A stretch of DNA of 64,000 nt from Ridgeia piscesae (Eukaryota > Annelida > Polychaeta > Sabellida > Siboglinidae), in contig JAODUO010000126.1 of the NCBI GenBank assembly GCA_025642075.2, forward strand, positions 27,501-91,500. The letters run 5' to 3'. This document shows, piece by piece, positions 21,701 to 27,700 of this stretch (positions within the stretch are counted from its first letter, which is position 1; each line of letters begins with the position of its first letter). The position numbers were made by a program, and so were the translations under genes. Under the pieces are notes generated by a model, which worked only from the letters and a program-made list of their open reading frames with translations, was not told where the DNA came from and made no database searches.

Positions 21701-24700
21701 GAACAAGGCGCTTCAAAACCCGAGTAAAAGAATACTGGTAGAGGGCGCCAATGCCACAATGCTCGACATCGACTTTGGTAGGTCACAAATATTTCTTTGT
21801 GAAAATTAAATAATGTTAGTCAATTTTTGGCATGTAAGTGCTGCGTGTTTCTCTAAACCGTCCAGATACATACCTGGAAAATTACCAAAAACTGTCCATT
21901 TATATTGTAGATATTTCTCTGATAACCGTCTAGCCTATTTCTTGTTTTGTTATCTTACTGCATTTGTACTCATAACTTTTCAATATTCATAGTTTTTATC
22001 AGTTTACTTTACATTACTATGTGTGGAAATTGCTATGAATTAAGTCAATACGAACTTGCATTTGATTAAATTGAGCATTTTGGGCTAACTCCAATTCTTT
22101 GCCTCAGTAAATCTGAAGATGTCTCCACAATTTTAAGTTATAAACATGTAAACCCATCTGCAGTGCAGTAAGAGCTGCTAGCTAAACGTTTCAAATACAG
22201 ATTTGGTAAAATGAATTTTCTTGTTCTTATTACACATGAGATCAATTAAAATAATTAAAAAAAAACAATTATGTGACTTATACATTTACATAGATGTATT
22301 CACCTTTTACAAAACCGAGTGCTGATATTCAAGCTACCGAATTACCAGTGCATATTTGAATACCCTAAGATTTTACTAAAACAATCATTTATATATTTCA
22401 CTTTTTTACACCCGCTATATTTTATATCAGAATAAATAACACAGTGTGGTGACTGAATGTTGTCGAACACAAAATAACTGTGCATTGGTTTTTTTGGAAC
22501 AGACGAGAATGTTATTATTTATGCATCCAATAGGGCTTGTAAGTCTCACGTGCGAAAATGAGGCTGGGGCCAGGAAGTCCATATTCTCCATCTTAACATA
22601 TAGGACTTTGTTTTTGGTTGTAATAATCGAACTGTTCCCAAATAGCGTGTTTCAGTTATGTTGTCCGAAGGATTATTACAAGCAGAAGCAGTGGAACACT
22701 TTGCCGGTGACAATGATCACGGAAATCATAAATTTTAATCAATTATTATGGTGGTTGCCATGACATTAGCGGCAAGTACTTGTGTTTGGTGATTTGACTA
22801 ATAATGAAGACTGACATTTTTTTGCGCAGTACAATCAGTTTTGGGCAAACGTATACATGTGTTATGATTATGTGCATTTAGACAACTTAGGCAACCACAA
22901 CGTATAACAATGTAAAATGCAAATCCCGTAAAAGACACAAAAAGCCTAAAATCGTGTCTATTATCTGCACTATGTAAATAGCTATATGTCTATGATAGTG
23001 TGGTAAACTCAATATTAAATCAGACATTTAAGATAAGAAACGTATAACACAAGACATTTATGACCTGATTTTCCTAGTATTCATCAGTCAGAAGCTACAA
23101 CTGTCATCCATCGTTAGAATATTATTCTTGTGTCCAGTCCCCAATCAGCTCCAGTCACGCGGAGTCTCGCCATGTATCGTGACCCAATTACAGGCCCTAT
23201 TAGATATCATTGTAGTACTGGTATATTTCGTATTTGGACATCAAAAAACCATGTTCATGATTAGATAAACCACTCGATTAAGTGGCTTTAATTAACATGT
23301 TTGTGCATCAGGAACATACCCCATGGTGACGTCCAGCAACTGTACAGTTGGTGGAGTCTGTACTGGCCTGGGAATCCCACCCCGCAATATAGGAGACGTA
23401 TACGGAGTGGTCAAGGCCTACACAACACGTATCGGCAGTGGCAGCTTCCCCACTGAGTTTGATGAGGTATGTGCTGTAGTTTCCCCACCTAGTTTGATGA
23501 GGTATGTGCTGTAGTTTCCCCACCTAGTTTGATGAGGTATGTGCTGTAGTTTCCCCACCTAGTTTGATGAGGTATGTGCTGTAGTTTCCCCACCTAGTTT
23601 GATGAGGTATGTGCTGTAGTTTCCCCACCTAGTTTGATGAGGTATGTGCTGTAGTTTCCCCACCTAGTTTGATGAGGTATGTGCTGTAGTTTCCCCACCT
23701 AGTTTGATGAGGTATGTGCTGTAGTTTCCCCACCTAGTTTGATGAGGTATGTGCTGTAGTTTCCCCACCTAGTTTGATGAGGTATGTGCTGTAGTTTCCC
23801 CACCTAGTTTGATGAGGTATGTGCTGTAGTTTCCCCACCTAGTTTGATGAGGTATGTGCTGTAGTTTCCCCACCGAGTTTGATGAGGTATGTGCTGTAGT
23901 TTCCCCACCTAGTTTGATGAGGTATGTGCTGTAGTTTCCCCACCTAGTTTGATGAGGTATGTGCTGTAGTTTCCCCACCTAGTTTGATGAGGTATGTGCT
24001 GTAGTTTTCCCACCTAGTTTGATGAGGTATGTGCTGTAGTTTCCCCACCTAGTTTGATGAGGTATGTGCTGTAGTTTCCCCACCTAGTTTGATGAGGTAT
24101 GTGCTGTAGTTTCCCCACCTAGTTTGATGAGGTATGTGCTGTAGTTTTCCCACCTAGTTTGATGAGGTATGTGCTGTAGTTTCCCCACCTAGTTTGATGA
24201 GGTATGTGCTGTAGTTTCCCCACCTAGTTTGATGAGGTATGTGCTGTAGTTTCCCCACTGAGTTTGATGAGGTATGTGCTGTAGTTTCCCCACCTAGTTT
24301 GATGAGGTATGTGCTGTAGTTTCCCCACCTAGTTTGATGAGGTATGTGCTGTAGTTTCCCCACCTAGTTTGATGAGGTATGTGCTGTAGTTTCCCCACCG
24401 AGTTTGATGAGGTATGTGCTGTAGTTTCCCCACCTAGTTTGATGAGGTATGTGCTGTAGTTTCCCCACCTAGTTTGATGAGGTATGTGCTGTAGTTTCCC
24501 CACCTAGTTTGATGAGGTATGTGCTGTAGTTTTCCCACTGAGTTTGATGAGGCATGTGCTGTAGTTTTCCCACTGAGTTTGATGAGGTATGTGCTGTAGT
24601 TTTCCCACTGAGTTTGATGAGGTATGTGCTGTAGTTTCCCCACCTAGTTTGATGAGGTATGTGCTGTAGTTTCCCCACCTAGTTTGATGAGGTATGTGCT

Positions 24701-27700
24701 GTAGTTTCCCCACCTAGTTTGATGAGGTATGTGCTGTAGTTTCCCCACCTAGTTTGATGAGGTATGTGCTGTAGTTTCCCCACCTAGTTTGATGAGGTAT
24801 GTGCTGTAGTTTTCCCACTGAGTTTGATGAGGTATGTGCTGTAGTTTTCCCACTGAGTTTGATGAGGTATGTGCTGTAGTTTTCCCACTGAGTTTGATGA
24901 GGTATGTGCTGTAGTTTCCCCACCTAGTTTGATGAGGTATGTGCTGTAGTTTCCCCACCTAGTTTGATGAGGTATGTGCTGTAGTTTTCCCACTGAGTTT
25001 GATGAGGTATGTGCTGTAGTTTCCCCACCTAGTTTGATGAGGTATGTGCTGTAGTTTTCCCACTGAGTTTGATGAGGTATGTGCTGTAGTTTCCCCACCT
25101 AGTTTGATGAGGTATGTGCTGTAGTTTTCCCACCTAGTTTGATGAGGTATGTGCTGTAGTTTTCCCACTGAGTTTGATGAGGTATGTGCTGTAGTTTTCC
25201 CACTGAGTTTGATGAGGTATGTGCTGTAGTTTCCCCACCTAGTTTGATGAGGTATGTACTGTAGTTTCCCCACCTAGTTTGATGAGGTATGTGCTGTAGT
25301 TTCCCCACCTAGTTTGATGAGGTATGTGCTGTAGTTTCCCCACCTAGTTTGATGAGGTATGTGCTGTAGTTTCCCCACCTAGTTTGATGAGGTATGTGCT
25401 GTAGTTTTCCCACTGAGTTTGATGAGGTATGTGCTGTAGTTTTCCCACTGAGTTTGATGAGGTATGTGCTGTAGTTTTCCCACTGAGTTTGATGAGGTAT
25501 GTGCTGTAGTTTCCCCACCTAGTTTGATGAGGTATGTACTGTAGTTTTCCCACTGAGTTTGATGAGGTATGTGCTGTAGTTTCCCCACCTAGTTTGATGA
25601 GGTATGTGCTGTAGTTTCCCCACCTAGTTTGATGAGGTATGTGCTGTAGTTTCCCCACCTAGTTTGATGAGGTATGTGCTGTAGTTTCCCCACCTAGTTT
25701 GATGAGGTATGTGCTGTAGTTTTCCCACTGAGTTTGATGAGGTATGTGTTGTAGTTTTCCCACTGAGTTTGATGAGGTATGTGCTGTAGTTTTCCCACTG
25801 AGTTTGATGAGGTATGTGCTGTAGTTTCCCCACCTAGTTTGATGAGGTATGTGCTGTAGTTTTCCCACTGAGTTTGATGAGGTATGTGCTGTAGTTTCCC
25901 CACCTAGTTTGATGAGGTATGTGCTGTAGTTTCCCCACCTAGTTTGATGAGGTATGTGCTGTAGTTTCCCCACCTAGTTTGATGAGGTATGTGCTGTAGT
26001 TTCCCCACCTAGTTTGATGAGGTATGTGCTGTAGTTTTCCCACTGAGTTTGATGAGGTATGTGCTGTAGTTTCCCCACCTAGTTTGATGAGGTATGTGCT
26101 GTAGTTTCCCCACCTAGTTTGATGAGGTATGTGCTGTAGTTTCCCCACCTAGTTTGATGAGGTATGTGCTGTAGTTTCCCCACCTAGTTTGATGAGGTAT
26201 GTGCTGTAGTTTTCCCACTGAGTTTGATGAGGTATGTGCTGTAGTTTCCCCACCTAGTTTGATGAGGTATGTGCTGTAGTTTCCCCACCTAGTTTGATGA
26301 GGTATGTGCTGTAGTTTCCCCACCTAGTTTGATGAGGTATGTGCTGTAGTTTCCCCACCTAGTTTGATGAGGTATGTGCTGTAGTTTCCCCACCTAGTTT
26401 GATGAGGTATGTGCTGTAGTTTCCCCACCTAGTTTGATGAGGTATGTGCTGTAGTTTCCACCTAGTTTGATGAGGTATGTGCTGTAGTTTCCCCACCTAG
26501 TTTGATGGGGTATGTGCTGTAGTTTCCCCACCTAGTTTGATGGGGTGTGAGCTGTAGTTTCCCCACTGAGTTTGATGAGGTATGGGCTGTAGTTTCCCCA
26601 CTGAGTTTGATGAGATATGTGCTGTAGTTTTCCCACTGAGTTCGATGAGATATGGGCTGTAGTTTCCCCACTGAGTTCGAGTTAATATCTGATAAAAAAA
26701 GTATCCTTTTTTAATTTGTTATTTCAAATTCAGTCTAAGGGGTTAAAAAGTGCTGCCACCTCACGGCGACTGGGTAATCGCACTGCGGTCGCCATTTTCT
26801 TTGTCTTTCCAGCCGCACACAATGACCTAACCATGAAAATGACCTCTTACAACCGCCAAACTTCCCTTCTTGTAATTTATATTACATATACATTCGCTAG
26901 GTTATAAAATAAAATCATTTAAATTCCTGTGAAGAATAAAGTTCACCAAAAAAAAACGTGCTAAACTCAACATTATCGGCAGTGATTACGCGCAGGCCAT
27001 AGATTACCGTAGCGTACCATTGCGGTGTCACTACATAAATGAGTGTCAGAAATTTTGGCTTTATCCTAAACTGACTTAAACCTCAGCGTAAACCCGAAAC
27101 TTTAATCCTACACAATATGGATATTACAGTAATCACAGAGCTACCCATAGTCGCTGGCGATGTCTTGCCAGCAAGTTTTTGTGCGAGTTTGTTTTGTGAA
27201 TTTTATTTGTTTCAATAATGTGATTTCATTTTGTAACCTAGTGTGTGTATATGTATATAAGATATGTGAGAAAAGTTTGGTGGCTGTTAGCTGTCGTTTT
27301 CTTAGTTGTCAGAAAATAAAAGATTGCCAAAATTAATGGTCATCATCACGCGATTCTTTGTTTTTATGCACATCCGTGCCCCATTAATCACACGTTTAAT
27401 GAGAGTTTGTTGCGAGATTTAAGTTACAAAATGTCAGAGGTAAAATTCAAATTGCCGTGGTCACATTTGGTGGTTGTTAATGATGGGACGTTTATATAGC
27501 GTCAGTGGAAAAACGGTCATAAAGACGAGTGGTTATTAATCAGAGAGTCGTTCACAAGGGGTTCTACTGTCACAAAACTTGCAAAAATTTAAATGAAAAA
27601 AAATGAAACCTCTATGGTAATTTAGTCAATTTACATGCCATTAAATATATAATGAACCATACTAACTTTCTGTGCATAGCCATTTTATGCTACTTAATGG

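Follow-up and report, generated by a model that had tools for sequence, protein, structure and literature searches.

A tandem array of the exon 9/intron 9 junction of the adenylosuccinate synthetase gene in the vent tubeworm Ridgeia piscesae, probably grown neutrally, and similar arrays elsewhere in the genome

Tandem repeats across splice junctions are known from amphioxus, where they are called mirages. According to the sections of these reports available to us, mirages are minisatellite-like tandem duplications of exon-intron boundaries, found in Adh3, the globin genes BflGb6/BflGb9, TnC and PGBD5, which occur at 5' and 3' borders and leave the normal mRNA undisturbed (PMC3087553, PMC3902484). 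In the equally partial texts at hand for two other systems, human variable internal tandem repeats in segmental duplications, with units of about 30 bp and about 4 copies on average, lie in some cases at exon-intron boundaries (PMC2812944), and CeRep25B is an intronic minisatellite of Caenorhabditis elegans near alternative splicing (PMC4039745). Here we describe a 35-bp array that starts in exon 9 of ADSS, the adenylosuccinate synthetase gene, of the vent tubeworm Ridgeia piscesae. The window, meaning the whole stretch of 64 kb that was analysed, is C126:27501-91500 of a 628-Mb assembly. In a literature search, outside which most subscription papers lay, we recognised no report of an annelid in which a native splice junction forms long arrays.

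We regard the array as a minisatellite of the mirage type that probably grew neutrally over the boundary between exon 9 and intron 9 of ADSS (probability about 0.76), and which splicing would tolerate because the donor adjacent to the exon is presumably the one used. The gene was located by tblastn with a human ADSS2 sequence as the query, and the model of 13 exons, with exon 9 ending at 23466 and a phase 0 junction between exons 9 and 10, yields 445 aa identical to the annotated R. piscesae protein NP493_126g00018, which uses the first donor. Tandem Repeats Finder (TRF) reports a period of 35, 92.2 copies, 96% matches and a score of 5815. Gene, exon, array start within the exon, a unit of 21 exonic and 14 intronic bases and about 92 copies had all been named in a preliminary description of this DNA, and the exon table and the unit list (92 units, as assembled) bear them out. 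The unit spacing is 35 throughout except for one of 33, so that the claim that downstream donors add multiples of 35 holds up to a 2-bp deletion near 26453, after which the offsets are 35n-2. The donor GAG/GTATGT (the slash marks the exon end) is identical in 86 of the 92 units; of the rest, the unit at 24530 has a GC donor and the other five close the array. The unit had also been taken for a copy of the exon end, but this does not apply to the commonest type, which reads CACCTAG where the coding copy in unit 1 reads CACTGAG; among the 86 full-length units that precede 26480, 62 carry CACCTAG, with two CACCGAG intermediates. As in a mirage, the unit spans the boundary and nearly all copies carry the splice signal, while 56 of the 92 units are identical, 18 belong to the TTTTCCCACTGAG type and the donor is altered in each of the five distal units.

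The copies are homogenised by turnover, being most uniform next to the exon and divergent at the far edge (Table 1); the mixed block holds both the sole GC donor and the 2-bp deletion. A 22-base piece of the unit, searched with at most one mismatch in the 628-Mb assembly, gave 90 matches; all among the matches listed lie in the ADSS array, and no second haplotype of the locus was found among them. Higher-order repeats in the unit order were considered and rejected, since 697 of 1000 shuffles contained a repeated mixed block at least as large as the one of 7 units observed. The array may have arisen by a tandem duplication over the last 21 exonic and the first 14 intronic bases, whereby the first copy would have stayed the working exon end and donor and the later copies would have fallen into the intron and expanded to 92. 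Turnover would then have homogenised the copies, most uniformly beside the exon, and left decayed ones at the far edge. The donor touching the exon would be chosen over identical ones downstream, with exon definition and enhancers within the exon body as the probable cause, and the array would have reached its size without a selected function.

Table 1. Features of the ADSS locus and other arrays in the window (positions in the window).
Feature	Position	Strand	Source
ADSS (adenylosuccinate synthetase) coding region, 13 exons	6564..30827	+	tblastn, exon table, translation
ADSS exon 9; donor GAG/GTATGT after 23466; array unit 1 takes its exonic part from the last 21 bases	23312..23466	+	
35-bp array, 92 junction units (exon-9 end plus intron-9 start)	23446..26671	+	TRF; unit list
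Exon-proximal block, 30 units (2-31): 25 of the commonest type, 0 of the TTTTCCCACTGAG type	23480..24529	+	
Mixed block, 56 units (32-87): commonest type (CACCTAG) 31, TTTTCCCACTGAG type 18, others 7	24530..26487	+	
Five decayed distal units; GT at donor position in 3/5; full GAG/GTATGT in 0/5	26488..26662	+	
ADSS exon 10	27809..27933	+	exon table
19-bp array, 62.7 copies, ADSS intron 5	19269..20443	+	
Tetranucleotide CGGT array, ~283 copies, upstream of ADSS	3318-4450		
63-bp array, 51 copies, within NAA40 intron (minus strand)	35979-39192		

The locus is not the single curiosity it had appeared to be, as similar arrays recur in the genome. The whole assembly was searched for three donor octamers in succession, with the reversed pattern as the control, and arrays were fetched from the matches listed. 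The AGGTAWGT triple gave 2726+2151 matches as opposed to 1431+1972 for its control (4877 versus 3403), and AGGTGAGT gave 3640+2874 as opposed to 2124+2172 (6514 versus 4296). Among the matches listed there were 13 arrays for AGGTAWGT, all fetched and one of them a microsatellite, and 11 for AGGTGAGT, nine of which were fetched; the two passed over are a GT-rich array on C14 and, on C21, a second copy of one family. By our own reading, the first unit spans a junction at the end of an open frame in 4 of the 13 and 6 of the 9, a total of 10 of 22. Homology supports two of these exons as OXCT1 (E 2e-13; Pfam CoA_trans; locus L048) and PRP16 (E 2.3e-16; L058), and weakly a third as a TAPP1-type PH exon (E 0.0021; L064). 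The other seven (L047, L052, L054, L059, L060, L062 and L063) rest on open frames, and L063, with only 3 exonic bases in its unit, is the weakest case. We take some of these exons to be GH63-like (L047), NF-YC-like and AMOP-like, labels which no search confirmed: for the peptides of the other junction exons, the two best Pfam hits stayed below the cut-offs (E 0.019 and 0.073), and in the PDB no hit went below E 0.19. Copy numbers range from about 5 to about 90 in the stretches seen, in unrelated genes. The PRP16 exon has a 5' splice-site array downstream and a 3' splice-site array upstream (exon and arrays within L058 1086-2801, oriented); the latter is a 39-bp repeat, about 33 copies long, with a unit that extends over the putative 3' splice site of that exon. 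The presumed GH63-like locus L047 (1575-4779, oriented) carries a 35-bp junction array of 93 copies; among its 89 scored donors, 12 have the AGGT form and 77 read AGATATGT, with a G-to-A change at donor position +1, which implies that arrays persist without intact donors.

In ADSS, the choice of donor would matter, and the expectation that only the first donor yields the intact protein is confirmed for the 90 donors scored: the first gives 445 aa, whereas all 89 later ones lead to a truncated protein, of 330 aa with the second donor and 319 aa with the third to fifth donors shown. The U1 duplex of the exon 9 donor has -8.0 kcal/mol, which is mid-range among the 12 ADSS donors (-13.5 to -5.4). 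For U1, 36 matches were found in the assembly, 33 of them over the Rfam cut-off and several clustered (C1058, C4465, C95). RNA structure that hides the decoy donors was tried as a candidate and dropped, as it does not discriminate between the first donor and the unit types. With a short folding window, the 9-nt sequence of the first donor has an unpaired probability of 0.070, compared with means of 0.050 (n = 65) for one unit type and 0.092 (n = 25) for the other; with a long folding window all of these fall below 0.01.

Several observations weigh against neutral growth with first-donor use, and they are given here together with the alternatives that they would favour. The single line of evidence for the presumed use of the first donor is the annotated protein. 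When cells are counted against the exon copy, donor positions show proportionally fewer differences than the rest, both in the whole ADSS array (9/828 versus 161/2392, Fisher 1.7e-12) and in L047 (88/972 versus 638/2808), which is also what selection for donors would give. Along with the intact donors in 86 of 92 units and the truncation from every later donor scored, this would suit a regulation of ADSS by unproductive splicing, in which downstream donors are used conditionally and the frameshifted or TAG-bearing mRNA is degraded. However, the difference in ADSS is mainly due to three unit positions (4, 10 and 11) that have two common states. In the uniform part, that is the 86 full-length units before 26480, where the 9 donor positions were compared with the other 26, 1 of 774 donor cells is changed as opposed to 7 of 1978 at the 23 non-polymorphic positions; of these seven, a single deletion accounts for three and the exon base that precedes unit 1 for one. 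The donor in the uniform part is thus about as invariant as the other non-polymorphic positions, and since this constancy is common to most of the unit, it needs no selection and gives no firm sign of regulation; the near-constancy noted in the preliminary description stands, but the donor does not appear to be special in it. In the remaining nine junction arrays the difference is slight or absent, so that fewer donor differences by raw cell count are clear in 2 of 11 arrays, ADSS and L047, and the latter has lost most of its donors. This loss, together with the like structure in unrelated genes, speaks against a device specific to ADSS, and we consider regulation by unproductive splicing highly unlikely. 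The five distal units show the opposite pattern, with 8 of 45 donor cells changed as opposed to 1 of 115 others, or 4 of 9 donor positions as opposed to 1 of 23 (Fisher 0.015), a concentration of change in the donor that plain neutral decay does not predict. Intron-proximal decoys may have been selected against, with the distal units inactivated early in a short array and an intact unit expanded later. As several of the changes are shared between neighbours, they represent few independent events, and in the 11 junction arrays pooled (the ten and ADSS) donor cells differ less than others (149/2868 versus 979/7636), a count in which cells are non-independent, the search favours intact donors, several arrays are covered only in part and a 24-bp part of L047 is forced to one period. 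Such selection against decoys therefore appears rather improbable.

A further alternative is a preference of arrays for junctions, which might act as seeds through R-loops, paused transcription or AG/GT microhomology. The exon flanked by arrays on both sides in PRP16 and the 10 of 22 fetched arrays on exon ends are in line with such seeding; however, the donor search itself finds junctions, and this share alone therefore says little. Whole-genome matches to the donor patterns are 1.4 to 1.5 fold above the reversed control, whereas in contigs C1 to C8:676 kb the separate arrays number 4 for AGGTGAGT and 4 for its control; the two AGGTAWGT octamers give 9 arrays there, one of them a microsatellite. 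Triple matches make up 24% of all AGGTGAGT octamers (6514/27466) and 17% in the control (4296/25081), which indicates a genome rich in arrays generally. A chance estimate was derived from the four other arrays with a period of 15-100 and more than 200 bp in 60.8 kb of the window, giving about 6.6e-5 per base and, with about 27 placements per donor, about 0.002 per junction. For 24,096 genes, the number given in the accessible part of a report on another assembly (PMC9921365), with an assumed 5 to 7 introns each, 215 to 300 junction arrays are expected. The 4 arrays (AGGTAWGT) observed in about 14 Mb and the 6 (AGGTGAGT) in about 56 Mb extrapolate to about 750, if the span is taken from the mean of ten contigs (1.43 Mb) and the octamers represent 4 of 12 donors as in ADSS. 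This is about 2.5 to 3.5 times chance, an order of magnitude only and uncertain several fold; uncertain intron number and array density could account for the difference. Together with the excess of matches, the estimate suggests that junctions might be mildly favoured; firm evidence for preferred sites was not seen, a mild preference may exist, and seeding as the cause of the array is unlikely in our judgement. An artefact of assembly, with the array absent or mis-sized, has in its favour the 3.2 kb of near-identical repeats known from an assembly alone and, according to the part of its report at hand, a published assembly made from Illumina reads only, which, judged by its size, is a different one from that used here. 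It is very improbable given a window free of N, the internal variants and graded edge of the array and comparable arrays with other units at other loci. Hardly credible is a reading of each unit as an in-frame microexon of 9 nt (TTTGATGAG, Phe-Asp-Glu) between an acceptor-like TTTCCCCACCTAG and the donor: the frame fits and one insert would give a protein of 448 aa with FDE repeated, but the insert is missing from the annotated protein, and the TTTCCCCACCTAG acceptor is a candidate by sequence reading. Among the three readings offered in the preliminary description, the neutral by-product fits best; regulation fares worse for the reasons given, and a U1 sink likewise finds no support, as it would set a single locus of about 90 mid-strength sites against a genome with 33 U1 matches over the cut-off.

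Further arrays lie in the window, in which a scan for tRNA and Rfam families gave no match. The 19-bp array of ADSS intron 5 is related to the 35-bp array in position and separate from it. It ends 3 bases short of exon 6, which starts at 20447, and the tract upstream of the acceptor is thus the last repeat itself. In the NAA40 intron, 34 bases separate the 63-bp array, in which all three forward frames are open, from an NAA40 exon identified by a PDB match (E 1.9e-12).

We put forward tentatively, and with somewhat more doubt than confidence, that perhaps hundreds of Ridgeia genes carry junction arrays of dozens of donors or acceptors. If so, the spliceosome must choose the site touching the exon against up to about 90 identical competitors, and new introns and exons could draw on the arrays as a permanent reserve of splice sites. 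Choice among identical donors is usually studied with few engineered copies. In some work on duplicated donors, the site on the intron side is reportedly preferred once U1 is bound to all of them, and a clean first-donor outcome in Ridgeia would therefore be informative. The arrays form a natural copy-number series across unrelated genes within a single animal, and PRP16, one of these genes, encodes a splicing helicase. Ridgeia RNA would show which donor prevails, that on the exon side or that on the intron side, and if there is a limit to what splicing tolerates.

The comparison with the known systems is drawn from the available sections of the reports cited. CeRep25B shares with the ADSS array that it is a minisatellite in introns near splicing decisions, whereas those sections do not describe a repeat that crosses an exon end or reproduces a native donor (PMC4039745). 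The human repeats share minisatellite units of about 30 bp, some of them at exon-intron boundaries, but are reported mainly as novel introns formed where exons hold repeats, in recent paralogues, and not as long runs of a native donor (PMC2812944). Closest are the mirages of amphioxus, a structure which is now extended to annelids: in both, the repeats span the splice junction, the units carry splice signals and either border can be affected, as both are at the PRP16 exon of Ridgeia. The host differs, being an annelid and not a cephalochordate, which is a difference of range and not of structure, and splicing in Ridgeia is predicted from sequence. Finally, the structure is recurrent in the Ridgeia genome, and its ADSS array reaches 92 units as opposed to 3 and 6 in two globin haplotypes of amphioxus.

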